From positions 1 to 64,000 of the forward strand of contig JAFGVA010000012.1 of NCBI GenBank assembly GCA_016938235.1: a stretch of 64,000 nt of DNA, read 5' to 3'. This DNA comes from Bacteroidales bacterium. GTDB taxonomy: Bacteria > Bacteroidota > Bacteroidia > Bacteroidales > UBA10428. Made by a program: the position numbers and the translations under genes. The notes beneath the pieces were generated by a model, which was given only the letters and a program-made list of their open reading frames with translations, did not search any database and was not told the origin of the DNA. Below are positions 45,448 to 52,778 of the stretch, one piece after another (position 1 is the stretch's first letter; every line of letters begins with the position of its first letter).

Positions 45448-47367
45448 TTACCAAATTATCTTTTCGGCCTGTATTGTTTTCCCATCCAAAATATGAATTA
45501 ATAAAATACGCGCATTGAAATTCCCTGCATCAATAGTTGTTGAACCTGACAAATTGGAATAATTTGAATAGAGTAAATCACCAAGCATATTGTAAATAGT
45601 TATTCGAACAGGTCTGTTTGTATCATATAAATTGGTTATTTGTAACTCCTTTGCTGATTGATTGTATTTTATTTCAAAACGAGATGGAGTTTCGGGCAAA
45701 GCAGTTGTTGATAAAATGCCTTGCTGATTGAATTGTACTCCGGTTCGATCCGGATATTCAGCAGTTAAAGTTATTGACTGACCTGCATTATTAAAACCCG
45801 GATATTCTGGATAAACTATATACTTACCAAAAGGCAATTCATTAAAATAAAATTCTCCCGACTTACCTGACAAAGTATATTTTAGTTGATGTCCGTTTTC
45901 TCCGGAAAGAATAATAGGGATGCCCTGTGTTGACTGATTTAAACTACCGCTAACTGAACCGGAACCTGAAATATCGTAAGGAATTGAATTTAGCTGTATA
46001 TCAACATCAAAAACATTGCCGTTCACGTTAATTAAATCGGATTCCTGCCAGTGTTCCTTATTTACAAAATAGCCTGGAAAACTATTATTATCTGTTTCCT
46101 CTGGCAGTGCATACAGCAGGTAGTTCCCTCTGTCGAGAGCCGGAAAACTAAAACCGGTTCCGGAAAGTTCATAGCTATCGAATAGCTGGTATTGACTACC
46201 AGCGTTTATAAATGCCAAAACTTTCCAATTGTTAGCAAAATTTAATTCCCCATGCACGTTACCCTCTAATGAGAACTGTTTGTTGGGAATGATAATGGAA
46301 TTACAATAACTTGAATTGCATCCGTTCCTGGTTGTTAAAAAAAGACAGGCGTTGATGTTTTCAGAAAAAGGATCGTAAATATGGTTTGGATTCTGGGTTG
46401 ATTGATTGTCGTTATCTCCAAACTCCCACGACCAATTGATTATTTCGTCGTTTGATGTTGACTGGTCGCTGAAATGAAAACCTACTCTGCCTTCACCGTT
46501 ATTTAAATAATCAGCATATTCAAAATCAGCAGAACAAGTAGGTTTGAAGGTTGCATTCAACTTCTTATCAAGGATAATATCGCGCATCAGTGTTGGGTTT
46601 TCCCAGACACTTACGTTCGGATCGTTCCACGACAAACGAAAATCCCTTCTACCCCAACCTTTGTCGTTATCCGAAATAACTGCTTCAAATCCAATGGTGT
46701 CTATGAATTGCAGATCAGAACTACCCATCAGAGTTTCAAAATTGAATAAAATTTCCATAAACCAACCGTCTGATGTAATGTTTTTATCTATTTTTTCTAT
46801 GTAAGAATAATCGCCAAGTCCAAAGCTGGTTTGACCAACGCGCCCCTGGTATTGTTCGGTTAAAGGAAAAAGCGCAAAAGTAGAATAGCCCCTGTTGTAA
46901 TAGGAAAATCCATCGTTAAACAAATCGAAATAGATGGTTATGTGATCGGCATAGTATAGAGAATCGGGATACACAAACTGCTCGCTGGTTATACTGTCAT
47001 CTTTTACATCAACTAATACATAAAACAGATGTGACTCCGGATTATATCCAGCTTTCCAATAACCTGACAAATCGCTTTCTTCGGGAAAAGTTTCTGTGTT
47101 GTATTCCAGAAGTTGATTGGCTTTAACCGTAGTCCACCTGCTATCAATAATTCCATCGTTAAAACTAATAGAAGTGCTGAAGGTGTCTATAACCGGATCC
47201 TGGGCATAAATGCTACCGGGAATTACTGATATTATAAAAAAAAACAGTAATATAAGGAATGATATGTTTTTTCGGTTTGAATTCAAAATTAGTTTTTTGT
47301 TATCATAAGTTAAGGAATCATGCCTATGTAGGAACGAATTTAATAAGTTGTTTTTTTTTGAATTCAT
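45448..47367 (-). CDS. CBM9-like/PKD T9SS surface protein
   Basis: 639 residues. After a long basic N-terminus comes the signal (ISFLILLFFFIISVIPGSIYAQ, about 35-55). Then a CBM9/DOMON-like domain (about 60-280, including SGYWKAGYNPESHLFYVLVD and ADHITIYFDLFNDG), a PKD domain (about 285-370, IINWSWEFGDNDNQSTQNPN), a carboxypeptidase-regulatory-like region (about 470-545, LSGKSGEFYFNELPFGKYIV) and a T9SS type A sorting domain (RITIYNMLGDLLYSNYSN to the end). No catalytic motif; it looks like a carbohydrate-binding or adhesive surface protein. Its start overlaps the stop of the STN-barrel gene by 4 bases, so it belongs to the sigma-FecR unit. Confidence 0.75.
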   Translation of the reverse strand: MNSKKNNLLNSFLHRHDSLTYDNKKLILNSNRKNISFLILLFFFIISVIPGSIYAQDPVIDTFSTSISFNDGIIDSRWTTVKANQLLEYNTETFPEESDLSGYWKAGYNPESHLFYVLVDVKDDSITSEQFVYPDSLYYADHITIYFDLFNDGFSYYNRGYSTFALFPLTEQYQGRVGQTSFGLGDYSYIEKIDKNITSDGWFMEILFNFETLMGSSDLQFIDTIGFEAVISDNDKGWGRRDFRLSWNDPNVSVWENPTLMRDIILDKKLNATFKPTCSADFEYADYLNNGEGRVGFHFSDQSTSNDEIINWSWEFGDNDNQSTQNPNHIYDPFSENINACLFLTTRNGCNSSYCNSIIIPNKQFSLEGNVHGELNFANNWKVLAFINAGSQYQLFDSYELSGTGFSFPALDRGNYLLYALPEETDNNSFPGYFVNKEHWQESDLINVNGNVFDVDIQLNSIPYDISGSGSVSGSLNQSTQGIPIILSGENGHQLKYTLSGKSGEFYFNELPFGKYIVYPEYPGFNNAGQSITLTAEYPDRTGVQFNQQGILSTTALPETPSRFEIKYNQSAKELQITNLYDTNRPVRITIYNMLGDLLYSNYSNLSGSTTIDAGNFNARILLIHILDGKTIQAEKIIW

Positions 47368-48761
47368 CTACTGTTTTTAAAAAAATAATATCGCATTCCT
47401 ATTGCGATGCTTCCATAATTGTTTTTCTGTTCTATTGCTTCTCTATTTGCATAAATGGAGCTAATGTTACCACAATAATATGGACGTACCACAAAACATA
47501 AATTCTTATTCAATAAATAGTTTACCGAAAGTGCAACTGAATATGAATAAGACGGATTTCGGGTTTTGAGTTCCAGGTTGTTGATGGAATTTGTTTCGGA
47601 ATAATTAAAATTTGTCGTATCGAAATAAACAGAAACTTTGTTTTGCAGGGGAACTTGAAATTTAACTCCTGCACTCAGTTCAAAACTAAAATTTTTATAC
47701 CTGGCATTGTATCCAAGCATTAAAGGTATCTGAATAAAACTAACATTAACTTTTGCTGTATTTCGAATAATTTCCGAAGTTTCAATCCAATTGGGTTCAG
47801 TTACATAAATCCAGTTAGTATCGGAGTTTTGAACAGTATAATAAGTTTCTATTGTATCGTTTCTGTTGTATGCGTTAATGGTTTCATTAATGTGATCGAA
47901 TTGTTGTGATAACTGACTGAACTCTATTCCTGACTGAACAAGCAACTGGTTATAATGAAGATTAAAATTTGCAGAAACCGAATAAGCCCTGACCCCCGAA
48001 ATACTTAATCTTTCACTTAGACTTTCGGAGAATAACCGATTGTCGCTATCTGTGATTTTATAATTAATTATTGGCTGATAAGAATATAGCAATCCGGCAG
48101 AAAACCATGTTTTTTTTTCGTTTGGCATTTTTGAGTATATCTTATCGAAAATTGTAGTTGAGTCGAACAGAATTAAAGTGTCAACAATGGTCTTTTCTAT
48201 AAAAACAGTGTCTTTCCTAATTTGTATTACGGTATCGAATCGAGTAAGAAAAACGGTATCATAATGATTCACAAAAACGGTATCGTTAGGTACAGGCTTC
48301 GGCTCTGGATCGGGTGTTGGTTTCTCTTTTTTTTCCTGAGCAACAATTGGCACTGATTTTTTAGTTGAATTTTTACTAACCGGGTTATTACCTGCGATGG
48401 GTTGCGGCAACTTCATAGGCATATAACTCACCTCTTTATCTGATTGAAAAAGAATAACCTGACCGCTTAATTCAACAAAACTAATGTTTAATCCAGAAAG
48501 AATATTGGATAAAATATATTTAACCGATTGATTTTTAAAGGATTTATTGATGGTTTTTTTGGGGATAATTGAGGGATTATAGCTAAAATTAATCGCTGAT
48601 ATTTCGCTGATTTTTTTTATTGATGCAATAAGGGATATGTTTTCGAACTGAATGCTGATTTCTTTTTCTAAAGATGTTTGGCAATAAGAAGAATATAATA
48701 AGCAAATCAGACCTAGAAAAGTGAAAATACTTTTGTATGAATGTTTAATTTTTGAAATCAT
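47364..48761 (-). CDS. STN-domain outer-membrane barrel protein
   Basis: 465 residues with a signal peptide (IFTFLGLICLLYSSYCQ). N-terminal STN domain (about 35-110: ISIQFENISLIASIKKISEI, INKSFKNQSVKYILSNILSG). A Pro/Lys linker (PTPDPEPKPVPN) leads to a striking run of DTV-type units (NDTVFVNHYDTVFLTRFDTV and onward to about 215). The remainder (about 220-465) is a small outer-membrane barrel ending IAIGMRYYFFKNSR. It has no plug or TonB-receptor barrel. The STN domain normally contacts a FecR-type anti-sigma factor, and a FecR gene is directly upstream (15-base gap), so it may be the surface signal receiver. Confidence 0.7.
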   Translation of the reverse strand: MISKIKHSYKSIFTFLGLICLLYSSYCQTSLEKEISIQFENISLIASIKKISEISAINFSYNPSIIPKKTINKSFKNQSVKYILSNILSGLNISFVELSGQVILFQSDKEVSYMPMKLPQPIAGNNPVSKNSTKKSVPIVAQEKKEKPTPDPEPKPVPNDTVFVNHYDTVFLTRFDTVIQIRKDTVFIEKTIVDTLILFDSTTIFDKIYSKMPNEKKTWFSAGLLYSYQPIINYKITDSDNRLFSESLSERLSISGVRAYSVSANFNLHYNQLLVQSGIEFSQLSQQFDHINETINAYNRNDTIETYYTVQNSDTNWIYVTEPNWIETSEIIRNTAKVNVSFIQIPLMLGYNARYKNFSFELSAGVKFQVPLQNKVSVYFDTTNFNYSETNSINNLELKTRNPSYSYSVALSVNYLLNKNLCFVVRPYYCGNISSIYANREAIEQKNNYGSIAIGMRYYFFKNSR

Positions 48762-48776
48762 TTAACAAAAATACAA

Positions 48777-49793
48777 CTAATTACAACCATTTCCATCGAC
48801 AAAAATAGTATCGTTGCTGCTTGACACCGAGATATTATGGGTGAGTTGTAATATCCAGAAAATCTGATTCAAACTTAAACTATCATATTTTGCTACTAAC
48901 ATGCAGTCATTGAAATCGGGGTTGTTTAAAATAATTGTTGTGTCGTATCCTTTTTGCAAAGATTCGATTACCTGTTCAATCCTGACACTGTCAAACACAT
49001 ACGATTCGGTTTTCCAGGATAAATAATTTGGATTATTGTTTGTCTCAACTACTAAACTATCTGAAACCTGATCGAGTTTAATTCTTTCTTCCTTTTTGAG
49101 TAAATAGGTGTTCCTGTGCTGGTTGGGAAGTAATTCTGTAACCTCCACTATTCCTGTTTTCACGGTAACTTCAACAGCTTCTCCCGGGTATGACCTGATA
49201 TTAAAGGAAGTACCTTTAACTTCAACTTTAACATGGTTGGTGTAAATAATAAAAGGTTTTTCGGGATTTGGAGCTATATCAAAAAAAGCCTCTCCTGAGA
49301 AATGAACAATTCGTGCCTTTTTCTTGTCGATTTTGGGGTGAAAGTCTATTTTCGAATAATTATTCAGGAATATTTTTGAGTTATCGGGTAAGATTATTTC
49401 TTCCTTAGCCAATTCAGTATTGAACGATATTTTCTCTGCATCAAATATTCCCGATTTCCATAATACAACACCAATTACAAAAACAGCAGCAATTCTTATT
49501 ATATAATTAACCAGACTTAACTTGCCTGTCTTCGCAACCTTATTTTCATTGTTATCAGTCAACCTGGTATTTTCAATAAAACGCTTCCAGCCCTTATCTG
49601 CCTGAAACGAATAAAATTCGTCAACAGACAGGTTATTGCTCCATATTTCTTTAATCCTGAAAAAATATGCTTTATTTTCATCAGAAGTATCAATCCATTT
49701 CTGAATGCGGTTCTGCTCTGCTTCGTTTGCCTCTCCGGCAAGGAAAGCAATTATTTCATGATTAATTTTTATGTCTTCTGTCAGCTCCTTCAT
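48777..49793 (-). CDS. FecR-type anti-sigma factor
   Basis: 338 residues. Cytoplasmic N-terminal part (about 1-85, FLAGEANEAEQNRIQKWIDT), one TM helix (about 92-112, IIRIAAVFVIGVVLW), periplasmic FecR domain (about 120-225, LPDNSKIFLNNYSKIDFHPK, VHFSGEAFFDIAPNPEKPFI, VEVKGTSFNIRSYPGEAVEV), and a C-terminal STN-like DUF4974 domain (about 260-335, SVRIEQVIESLQKGYDTTII). It would hold the neighbouring ECF sigma factor inactive until signalled from the periplasm. Starts 43 bases after the sigma gene. Confidence 0.93.
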   Translation of the reverse strand: MKELTEDIKINHEIIAFLAGEANEAEQNRIQKWIDTSDENKAYFFRIKEIWSNNLSVDEFYSFQADKGWKRFIENTRLTDNNENKVAKTGKLSLVNYIIRIAAVFVIGVVLWKSGIFDAEKISFNTELAKEEIILPDNSKIFLNNYSKIDFHPKIDKKKARIVHFSGEAFFDIAPNPEKPFIIYTNHVKVEVKGTSFNIRSYPGEAVEVTVKTGIVEVTELLPNQHRNTYLLKKEERIKLDQVSDSLVVETNNNPNYLSWKTESYVFDSVRIEQVIESLQKGYDTTIILNNPDFNDCMLVAKYDSLSLNQIFWILQLTHNISVSSSNDTIFVDGNGCN

Positions 49794-49836
49794 AATAACC
49801 TTATTATGAGAGTATATTTATATGATGTGCAAGTAT

Positions 49837-50415
49837 TCATAATCCCTTACATAATGTATAAAAAATTATCAATACTTTTATAATAGATAATGTCTTCAAC
49901 TTCTCTTTTAGTGCCAGGTTTGCCCTGTGCATATGCGTTTCAACCGTTTTAACTGATATATTCAGCTTTTTTGAAATTTCGGCATGGCTCATGTTTTCAA
50001 ATTTCCGAAGCTTAAAAACTTCACCGCATTTTTCCGGGAGTTCGTCAATTGCTTTGTAAATGGCGGTAATCAAATCAGAATCGGGTTGGTTGTTATCTGA
50101 GTTCTGCAGAGCTCTCAAATTATACTCCTTATATAAAATTTCGTTTTTGAGGGACCTGAGGAAATCAATTGAATTGTTATAGGTTGCTTTATACAAATAG
50201 GATTTCAGAGAAGTTGAAATGGAGAAATCCTCGCCTTTATTCCAAATCTTGAAGAATAGTTCCTGTACCAGGTCTTCGGCAATATCATTTCTTTTAACAA
50301 TAAGCTTGCTATACGCGCACAAAGCACCGTAATACTCCTTAAACAGATTCTCGAATACAGCCTCGTTTTTATGTTGTATCCCGGCAATTAATATCTTTTC
50401 TTCTGCAGCTCCCAA
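49837..50415 (-). CDS. ECF RNA polymerase sigma factor
   Basis: 192 residues. Region 2: VFENLFKEYYGALCAYSKLI and DIAEDLVQELFFKIWNKGED; region 4: LPEKCGEVFKLRKFENMSHA and EISKKLNISVKTVETHMHRA. This is the Bacteroidota FecI-like (sigma-70 family, expansion type) group. The frame has no ATG near its start: an in-frame stop lies five codons before a TTG at 50413-50415, so TTG is the likely start codon. The C-terminus carries a hydrophobic tail (IIKVLIIFYTLCKGL). First gene of the sigma-FecR-STN barrel-CBM9 unit, which it presumably directs. Confidence 0.9.
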   Translation of the reverse strand: MGAAEEKILIAGIQHKNEAVFENLFKEYYGALCAYSKLIVKRNDIAEDLVQELFFKIWNKGEDFSISTSLKSYLYKATYNNSIDFLRSLKNEILYKEYNLRALQNSDNNQPDSDLITAIYKAIDELPEKCGEVFKLRKFENMSHAEISKKLNISVKTVETHMHRANLALKEKLKTLSIIKVLIIFYTLCKGL

Positions 50416-50651: not shown

Positions 50652-52778
50652 TTAATTCAATACAATAAATTTTGCACTAAAGGTATTTTCAGAAGTTACT
50701 ATTTTCAGGAAATAGATACCTGAGCTTAAATTAAAATATAACTTATTTTTCTCTACAGATTGTTCTAAGCTTATGTTCACGAGTTGTGCATTAATATCAT
50801 AGCATTTTATGTCATTAATAACCATTCCGCCAGGTATGTCTAATGTTAGTGAATTTGAGGCTGGATTAGGGTAAATGTTTATTATTTTTGTTGGAATAGT
50901 CTGTGACTTGCCATAACATTCTGATATACCTATACACAAGGAGGTATTAATCTGCAATGCATTCTGATTCTCCGCCTGATACCAGGTATCATCGTACAGG
51001 TACATCGAGGATGGCTTGTTATATCCTCTATCCATGGCATGAAATAGCGCAAATGTGTCTGCATCTGATTTGTAATTAATTTTATACCCTGCAAAAAATG
51101 AATCAGCTGTTTTTATTACGCTATCAAATGGAATATAATTTACCTTTTCAGGAATAATATCCTTAATAAACAATAATTCAGAATAACACTCTTTTTCCGG
51201 ATATTCGGCCCCTGCCCAAACCTTAATCTCTATGCTGGATAATGGTTCTGAAGAATAGGCCTTAGCTACATTAAGATAAATACCGGCAATTTGCAGACCT
51301 CCGGGTGATTCGAATTTTTCGGCAAATTGAGAAAAACCTTCTGAACTATGGCCTGAAATCCACCCCCATTCTAATCCTTCCTGGCTCAATCCTATTTTAT
51401 CACAGGGAAATATATTCCAGGCTGTATCACAGAATTCAGTATTAAAGCCATAAGGATCGTACCCGTCTAATACCAGTTGATTGGTTTGTGCTGAATCGAG
51501 CCAATATTTGAGCTGCTTAGCCGGATCTGAATAAGAATCCCAGGAAGTGCTGAATTTGGTAAAATAATCATCATAGGGATAACTGCAAGTTGACCGACCT
51601 CCGGACATGGTAGCGAAAATCCTGTGCTGCTCATTAAATAAAGGAGCTCCTGAAGACCCTAATTCAGTGGAACCTATTTCCCAGTGCGATACTTTCCATG
51701 TTGAATTTGCATCAAATCCTTTCCCGATATTTTCGTTTTTTACAGGGTGAAACTCAACTGCAATCTGTTTAACCTCCCCAAAAGGATGGTGTATACAAAC
51801 ACCCGACGGTGAGATTAAATTCCCTGCATCCCATCCTGCATAAAAAGGTATAAAATATGACGGAGGCGGCTCGTTAAGTTTCATTAAAGCAAAATCAACC
51901 TGATTATTTGTGTTTGCAATAAGAGTAGCGCCTGACAAGCTTTGTATTGTATTTACGGGCTCGCCCATGCAAGCTGTCGATTCATAGTTGAAAATAAACA
52001 ATGCTTCGGCAGCCATCTCGGCTGATGTTATCAGATGACCTGCTGTGAGAACATAGGGTGTATTATTTATGGCTGTATTTCCAACCAACGTACCTGTTCC
52101 CATTCCTCCCGCAGTAAGTACCTTGCAGACCGAGCGCTTTTCAGTTTGCCAGTATTTGCCGTTTAAGCAGTTTATATCTTCAAAGCACGCCCTCTCGTCT
52201 GTTGATTTAAGCGTATTACTTGGGAATATATTAATATAGTCGTGATATACTTGAGTAATGACTGCCTCACCAGGGGTTTTTTGTGAAGTTGGTATATTGA
52301 TTTCAATAATTACCCTGCTGCCCCTTACTGGTGCAATGGATAAAATTCCGGCAGAATTATTATTCTTACTGGTAAATGCCCCACGAAGATCTTCGTATTT
52401 CGGGCCATAAACGTACAGCCTTACACCCGGTAAAAGTTTATATTTCAATGTAAGATATATCGAATAGGCATTTTCTGAATGAATGCCCAATCTCCAGATT
52501 CGTCCACTGGAAGTTTCTGTCCATTCGCCTGAATTATCCGGGTCGAACTCCGTATGAAAGGGGCAGGCGAATTGAAAGTTTTTGGTATTGCTTTGAGCAG
52601 TTTCAGGTTTATGCAAACAAAACGTGCTGTCGATGGAAGGCATCTCTTCAAAACAGTTAAGGGCTGAAAGATTTTCAGTTACACTATACGGAACAGCATT
52701 TTCATGAACCTGGCCTGAGATTTTATATAACCAGCCATAGCAAAGGCAGAGGACTAATACAAGACGCAGAAACTTCAT
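50652..52778 (-). CDS. T9SS trypsin-like serine peptidase
   Basis: 708 residues with a signal peptide (MKFLRLVLVLCLCYGWLYKI). An N-terminal beta region (about 60-190) precedes a chymotrypsin-fold domain (about 205-430). The catalytic triad is visible: His in YVLTAGHLI, Asp in VDFALMKLNEP, Ser in LGSSGAPLFNEQ. Preceding CFEDINCLNGKYW with further Cys suggests disulfides, as in lysyl-endopeptidase-like secreted peptidases. A C-terminal beta region is followed by a T9SS type A domain (INIYPNPASNSLTLDIPGGM). Probably a secreted peptidase with Lys or other S1 specificity; specificity not assigned. Confidence 0.85.
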   Translation of the reverse strand: MKFLRLVLVLCLCYGWLYKISGQVHENAVPYSVTENLSALNCFEEMPSIDSTFCLHKPETAQSNTKNFQFACPFHTEFDPDNSGEWTETSSGRIWRLGIHSENAYSIYLTLKYKLLPGVRLYVYGPKYEDLRGAFTSKNNNSAGILSIAPVRGSRVIIEINIPTSQKTPGEAVITQVYHDYINIFPSNTLKSTDERACFEDINCLNGKYWQTEKRSVCKVLTAGGMGTGTLVGNTAINNTPYVLTAGHLITSAEMAAEALFIFNYESTACMGEPVNTIQSLSGATLIANTNNQVDFALMKLNEPPPSYFIPFYAGWDAGNLISPSGVCIHHPFGEVKQIAVEFHPVKNENIGKGFDANSTWKVSHWEIGSTELGSSGAPLFNEQHRIFATMSGGRSTCSYPYDDYFTKFSTSWDSYSDPAKQLKYWLDSAQTNQLVLDGYDPYGFNTEFCDTAWNIFPCDKIGLSQEGLEWGWISGHSSEGFSQFAEKFESPGGLQIAGIYLNVAKAYSSEPLSSIEIKVWAGAEYPEKECYSELLFIKDIIPEKVNYIPFDSVIKTADSFFAGYKINYKSDADTFALFHAMDRGYNKPSSMYLYDDTWYQAENQNALQINTSLCIGISECYGKSQTIPTKIINIYPNPASNSLTLDIPGGMVINDIKCYDINAQLVNISLEQSVEKNKLYFNLSSGIYFLKIVTSENTFSAKFIVLN

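Follow-up and report, generated by a model that had tools for sequence, protein, structure and literature searches.

How might a FecR-type anti-sigma factor receive a signal from the cell surface when the outer-membrane protein encoded beside it is a small barrel lacking the plug of a TonB-dependent receptor? This question is raised by a 64,000-nucleotide stretch of contig JAFGVA010000012.1 of a Bacteroidales bacterium, hereafter the window, in which a minus-strand unit at 45448-50415 comprises, in this order, genes for an extracytoplasmic function (ECF) sigma factor, a FecR anti-sigma factor, a protein joining an STN domain through a linker to a barrel (the STN-barrel protein), and a surface protein, here termed the cargo, of the type IX secretion system (T9SS) kind; we confirmed its coordinates, strand and gene order. 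As this order is conserved across further loci, the arrangement is not due to chance. Comparisons of sequences and predicted structures indicate that the barrel, rather than being a reduced TonB receptor, is of the type found in Dma proteins, which combine an anti-sigma domain, a transmembrane (TM) helix, a disordered tether and a beta-barrel, and are encoded beside an ECF sigma factor (PMC13088901). Since the barrels group with Dma-like barrels but the sigma factors with FecR-associated sigma factors, the unit is, to judge by these affinities, a mosaic of a FecI/FecR-type control half and a Dma-type sensor half. We propose, with a probability of roughly 0.7, that it constitutes a two-chain, TonB-independent system of cell-surface signalling, in which an STN dock and a disordered tether of ~110 residues take the place of the covalent link in Dma.

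The STN-barrel protein (465 amino acids; 47364-48761, on the minus strand like all the other features of the unit) is predicted to be an outer-membrane transducer without a plug on the basis of Pfam matches, an AlphaFold model and 29 further loci of the same architecture. Its putative signal peptide (residues 1-28; 48678-48761; boundary set by eye) ends in ..YSSYCQ, with a modelled helix at residues 9-24 and a Gln28 that is almost invariant in the family. AlphaFold gives residues 34-106 (48444-48662) a confident beta-alpha-beta-beta-alpha-beta-beta STN fold, in blocks mostly with a predicted local distance difference test score (pLDDT) of 73-94. Pfam recovers STN (PF07660) in 15/20 family members, at best with 3.4e-10, and a family profile searched against the PDB matched the STN region of 4m0n/4m0h, a putative anti-sigma factor (E 1.8e-4), and, weakly, the signalling domain of the ferric-pseudobactin receptor. 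It is by this fold and these 15 members, the window protein itself lying below the Pfam cut-off, that the unit can be said to have an outer-membrane partner with an N-terminal STN domain, as FecI/FecR systems do. Residues 107-217 (111 amino acids; 48111-48443) are mostly modelled with a pLDDT below 50 (about 33-48), that is, as a long disordered tether like that of the Dma family; across the STN-barrel family this linker measures 59-111 residues. It holds five DT motifs in the window protein, with DT[VI] repeats at about 48141-48284, and 3-7 such motifs in each of the 20 aligned members, and among the 626 open reading frames of the examined loci runs of at least four DT motifs are almost restricted to this family. 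The barrel domain (residues 218-460; 47382-48110) matches OMP_b-brl_2 (PF13568; 29.3 bits, cut-off 27) and is modelled, in an AlphaFold run on a 20-row alignment, with eight main strands and one long hairpin, its best PDB match being the OmpA barrel (TM-score 0.68 by target). The hairpin (residues 290-334, with strands at 293-311 and 314-332; 47760-47894) is presumed to be extracellular and bears the motif DTxxxYYTxxxxDTxWxYxTDS, the best-conserved stretch of the family apart from the linker. Pfam found no Plug or TonB-receptor domain in the window protein or in family members; where a classical system has a TonB-dependent receptor with plug, TonB box and large barrel, this unit has a small OmpA-like barrel. 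An earlier note on this DNA had claimed that an STN domain is joined by a DTV-rich linker to a small plugless barrel, that this protein replaces the TonB receptor of a sigma/FecR unit, and that the last two genes overlap by four bases (the ATGA at 47364-47367, which holds the barrel stop and the cargo start). All three claims hold and the signalling route that it drew survives in outline; what it missed, and what makes this a different kind of system, is the Dma-type nature of the barrel.

That identity emerged from searches with the barrel half, which yielded a second set of loci having a sigma factor, no FecR, and a protein of 455-575 amino acids with N-terminal helices, one TM segment, long disorder and a C-terminal barrel; we call these loci Dma-like after the domain organization described for Dma proteins (PMC13088901). 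In the AlphaFold model of one such protein (L094), helices at 8-46 and a TM helix at 50-69 precede disorder at 71-268 and then a barrel whose strands follow the same order as in the window barrel and which likewise has the long hairpin and, separating strands 1 and 2, a helix. Aligned by hhalign, STN-barrels match Dma-like barrels with a probability of 100% (E 3e-41, 248 columns) as against 91% (1e-6, 88 columns) for generic PF13568 barrels of the same genome, and a generic PorT-like barrel was rejected on this much weaker match. In the barrel tree the STN-barrels are nested among the Dma-like barrels (split 95/85), and the DTV linker is common to the STN-barrels and their closest Dma-like relatives. 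Hence, by profile alignment and shared modelled topology, the C-terminal barrel is of the Dma type; the anti-sigma and TM parts, which Dma carries on the same chain, are here replaced by a signal peptide and STN and lie on FecR instead. Pfam detects STN in 15/20 STN-barrel proteins versus 0/16 Dma-like proteins, the barrel family being the same in both. The branch leading to the window sequence is long, and the barrel and sigma trees are compatible with one or several origins of the STN-barrels. The window genome also has one Dma-like locus (G000:C144, near 28-30 kb).

A further organization, which might be termed split Dma, is found at loci without STN (L225 4321-6004, L226 4746-6402, L227 3-1264, L100 4850-6520 and L035 6304-7848), each with a sigma factor, a short single-pass anti-sigma factor of 155-240 amino acids (truncated in L227), a separate secreted barrel with a DTV linker, and a T9SS protein. 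The terminal strands of these anti-sigma factors are rich in K/R and contain DT motifs, and their partner barrels start with DT[VI] repeats, making a strand-pairing dock between the two ends possible. As both partners bear DT-containing strands at their facing ends, the DT[VI] repeats themselves may be a periplasmic docking module.

The control half is of a different affinity. The sigma factor (192 amino acids, TTG start; 49837-50415) scores above the cut-off of TIGR02985 (1.7e-42) and falls in the FecR-associated clade of the sigma tree, separated from the Dma-associated sigma factors with support of 100/99; to judge by this tree position, the adjacent ECF21 sigma factor typical of the Dma family is apparently lacking here. 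FecR (48777-49793) exceeds the cut-offs of both PF04773 (1e-14) and PF16344 (9.7e-10), and its predicted layout is a cytosolic N-terminus, a single TM helix (about 49458-49514, read from the sequence), the FecR domain, and a periplasmic STN-like FecR_C terminus (48798-49001). The unit accordingly has the FecR-associated ECF sigma factor, and the FecR with TM helix and STN-like periplasmic C-terminus, that mark a FecI/FecR system. Autoregulation through a common ECF promoter found no support: a bipartite motif sought across 27 upstream regions was common to at most 7 loci, barely exceeding the 4-6 given by shuffled sequences. A TAnnTTTG-like element of housekeeping type lies shortly upstream of many of the sigma operons, for example in L113, L117, L120 and L220. 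Besides this unit, the window genome has FecR at ten other loci, and STN-plug receptors are encoded at several of them; at one locus of this genome (L181 1852-4201, contig C144) the gene after sigma factor and FecR codes for a protein that bears a TonB C-terminal domain (PF03544) in place of an STN receptor.

Conservation of gene order had been set beforehand as the test that could refute the proposed unit, and the order proved to be conserved. Family scans gave 30 STN-barrel loci, window included, in which FecR lies directly upstream of the STN-barrel gene in 29/29 cases and a sigma factor upstream in 28/28 where the contig reaches (the sigma factor of L111 and the FecR of L217 and L218 were identified by tblastn). 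FecR is thus present at 29/29 STN-barrel loci versus 0/23 Dma-like loci, and because it co-occurs with STN-barrels and never with Dma-like loci in this set, we regard this as the best indirect indication of the STN domain serving FecR. Of 392 genomes sampled from the order, 16 encode a full-length STN-barrel with an E-value of at most 5e-65; divergent ones were found in at least three others. Among the matches listed for 395 genomes sampled across the phylum, the only full-length match was to the window's own gene, the STN half otherwise matching receptors and the barrel half Dma-sized proteins. One contig in the set, L124, from a metagenome-assembled genome (MAG) labelled 'Chlorobiota', is nearly identical to the Bacteroidetes MAG contig L119 and is probably misbinned. 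A literature search whose coverage excluded most subscription journals returned no description of an STN small barrel coupled to FecR; as far as we could find, such a protein, in the same gene order across dozens of related bacteria, has not been previously described.

The cargo (639 amino acids; 45448-47367) carries by Pfam a CBM9_1 domain (46567-47157, 66 bits), a PKD domain (PKD_4; 46372-46485), a CarboxypepD_reg-like domain (45751-45963) and, at 45454-45648, a putative degenerate T9SS C-terminal domain (CTD), which is matched at E 5e-4 by a profile made from the tails of its relatives. Residues 242-547, about 300 in all, are 26-34% identical to T9SS proteins beside Dma-like barrels (E 4e-21 to 5e-33), and the window genome codes for SprA and about 110 T9SS tails. 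By a tail profile that draws in part on these cargos, several being Pfam-positive in their own right, a T9SS tail occurs on the next gene in 20/23 complete STN-barrel loci (window excluded), in 16/22 Dma-like loci and in 0/17 other FecR/STN loci. The three STN-barrel loci without such a tail downstream code for RCC1-repeat proteins of one family (L222 3628-7494, L223 5051-8843 and L224 4992-8820), in which Ig_7 was found in L222 and L223 and no type A T9SS tail was detected. The cargo heads range from CBM9 with PKD in the window to a laminin-G lectin-like domain with fn3 in L038, a beta-helix at most loci and the RCC1 repeats of one family, while PKD arrays form the heads at Dma-like loci. The glycan-binding input envisaged in the earlier note is thus not a feature conserved across the loci. 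At many STN-barrel loci the cargo gene is followed, after about 130-900 bases, by a very large gene whose product of more than 1000 amino acids looks secreted (for example L110 from 6871 on, L119 from 6579 on, L122 from 10001 on); the single fragment of such a gene that was scanned, from L080, gave no Pfam match. Directly upstream of the unit, on the same strand and after a gap of 236 bases, lies a gene for a trypsin-like protease with a strong T9SS tail (50652-52778).

Two precedents from receptors guide the mechanism that we posit. In PupB-PupR, the receptor STN domain is docked on the STN-like end of the FecR-type regulator in a solved structure (PMC7186176), and in FoxA-FoxR the STN domain keeps the anti-sigma factor from being proteolysed as long as no signal is present, it being called unclear how the receptor STN crosses the periplasm (PMC11637429). 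Here, the barrel would lie in the outer membrane and its tether of ~110 residues would span the periplasm, as a disordered linker of 59-111 residues could, allowing STN to dock on the STN-like C-terminus of a FecR that keeps the sigma factor at the inner membrane. An event at the surface, most simply the binding, loss or loading of the T9SS protein or of a ligand at the outer loops of the barrel, would alter the STN-FecR contact, thereby opening FecR to regulated proteolysis and releasing the sigma factor. The sign is taken from FoxA/FoxR, the docked STN protecting FecR and its undocking being activating (PMC11637429); plug, transport and TonB would be unnecessary in such a route. A glycan signal could plausibly come from the T9SS protein. 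The cargo is a plausible input because PorA, a CTD protein of the T9SS whose lectin fold resembles FimH, was proposed to relay a surface signal to SigP (PMC7712824) and PorP-like barrels bind CTD proteins, though a role in output or anchorage would fit nearly as well. More tentatively, and with slightly less than even confidence, we suggest that one surface sensor is wired in three ways, as single-chain Dma, as split Dma and as FecR with STN-barrel, the third being a reversible, TonB-independent dock with the T9SS protein as an interchangeable input.

Among the alternatives, it is possible, if somewhat doubtful, that the barrel monitors the condition of the outer membrane itself, such as envelope or vesiculation stress, and that the T9SS protein is merely a co-operonic output. 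This would accord with the Dma-type barrel, given that Dma1/Dma2, whose mutants suggest such a role, govern vesicle formation and polysaccharide loci (PMC13088901), and with the widely varying cargo heads expected if an output evolves instead of a sensor; against it, the most conserved feature of the barrel is the presumed extracellular hairpin motif, which suits contact with a protein or ligand, and the cargo gene nearly always directly adjoins, and even overlaps, that of the barrel. We consider it unlikely that the barrel is mainly an anchor or dock for the cargo, with the sigma unit as a feedback gauge of what is mounted. PorP-like barrels do bind and anchor co-encoded type B CTD proteins (PMC9143113), and a cargo follows in 20 of the 23 complete STN-barrel loci; yet the barrel is OmpA-like (PF13568, eight strands) and has no PorP family match, and the Pfam-detectable tails beside STN-barrels resemble the type A Por_Secre_tail, type A proteins being usually attached to anionic lipopolysaccharide (A-LPS; PMC9143113). 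That the unit ends with the STN-barrel and the T9SS gene is a chance neighbour is improbable: about 110 T9SS tails in the genome and the T9SS protease on the other flank speak for it, but the adjacency counts (20/23 as against 0/17 at other FecR loci) reject it at the level of the family, and the window cargo is homologous over ~300 residues to those beside Dma-like barrels. Least probable is an ordinary FecI/FecR system with a degenerated TonB receptor still engaged in transport, which the classical STN and FecR parts might suggest but which we reject, for there is no plug or large receptor barrel, the small OmpA-type fold belongs to another family with homology to Dma-like barrels and not to receptors, and classical STN-plug receptors exist elsewhere in the same genome.

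Several points weigh against the two-chain TonB-independent proposal. The window STN scores 15.5 bits against a Pfam cut-off of 28.4, and the cargo tail 14.8 bits against 27 (Por_Secre_tail/TIGR04183); the head of the cargo is not kept as a glycan binder across loci. Many of the conserved loci come from related MAGs, and the counts overstate their independence. The alignments are shallow (18-20 rows), the AlphaFold confidence is good for STN and barrel only, and 'Dma-like' denotes a domain organization rather than an alignment to the Bacteroides thetaiotaomicron proteins. The STN-FecR contact, the direction of signalling, membrane location, proteolysis and regulation are predictions here.

The unit links FecR surface signalling and Dma, two classes of Bacteroidota signalling that have so far been handled apart, and offers a clean test of STN-FecR signalling without a TonB receptor or transport. 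Its built-in tether of ~60-110 residues bears on the problem of spanning the periplasm posed by FoxA/FoxR (PMC11637429), and, if all three wirings do belong to one sensor, the STN wiring would exchange a covalent connection between the membranes for a dock that is reversible. In the loci seen, a simple genetic rule applies, namely that the barrel bears STN if and only if FecR adjoins, which could be used to find and swap sensors.

Set against known systems, the unit shares with those of the FecI/FecR/FecA type (PupI/PupR/PupB, FoxI/FoxR/FoxA) an ECF sigma factor, a single-pass FecR with STN-like C-terminus, an outer-membrane protein with N-terminal STN, and the gene order sigma-FecR-outer-membrane protein; it differs in that this partner is an eight-stranded barrel with neither plug nor TonB-receptor homology, whose STN is tethered by a DTV linker of roughly 60-110 residues in the family. 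With the Dma family it has in common a homologous C-terminal barrel, a long disordered tether, an adjacent ECF sigma factor and, often, a neighbouring T9SS surface protein, but its anti-sigma and TM parts are on a separate chain, FecR and an STN dock stand in for the covalent link, and its sigma factor belongs to the FecR-associated clade. The PorA/PorXY-SigP route of Porphyromonas gingivalis likewise has a lectin-fold T9SS CTD surface protein with a proposed relay to an ECF sigma factor (PMC7712824); unlike the window unit, it uses a two-component system and has no FecR, STN or barrel transducer. Finally, PorP/SprF resembles the unit in pairing an outer-membrane barrel with a T9SS surface protein (PMC9143113), and differs from it in barrel family and in having neither STN nor a sigma/anti-sigma unit.

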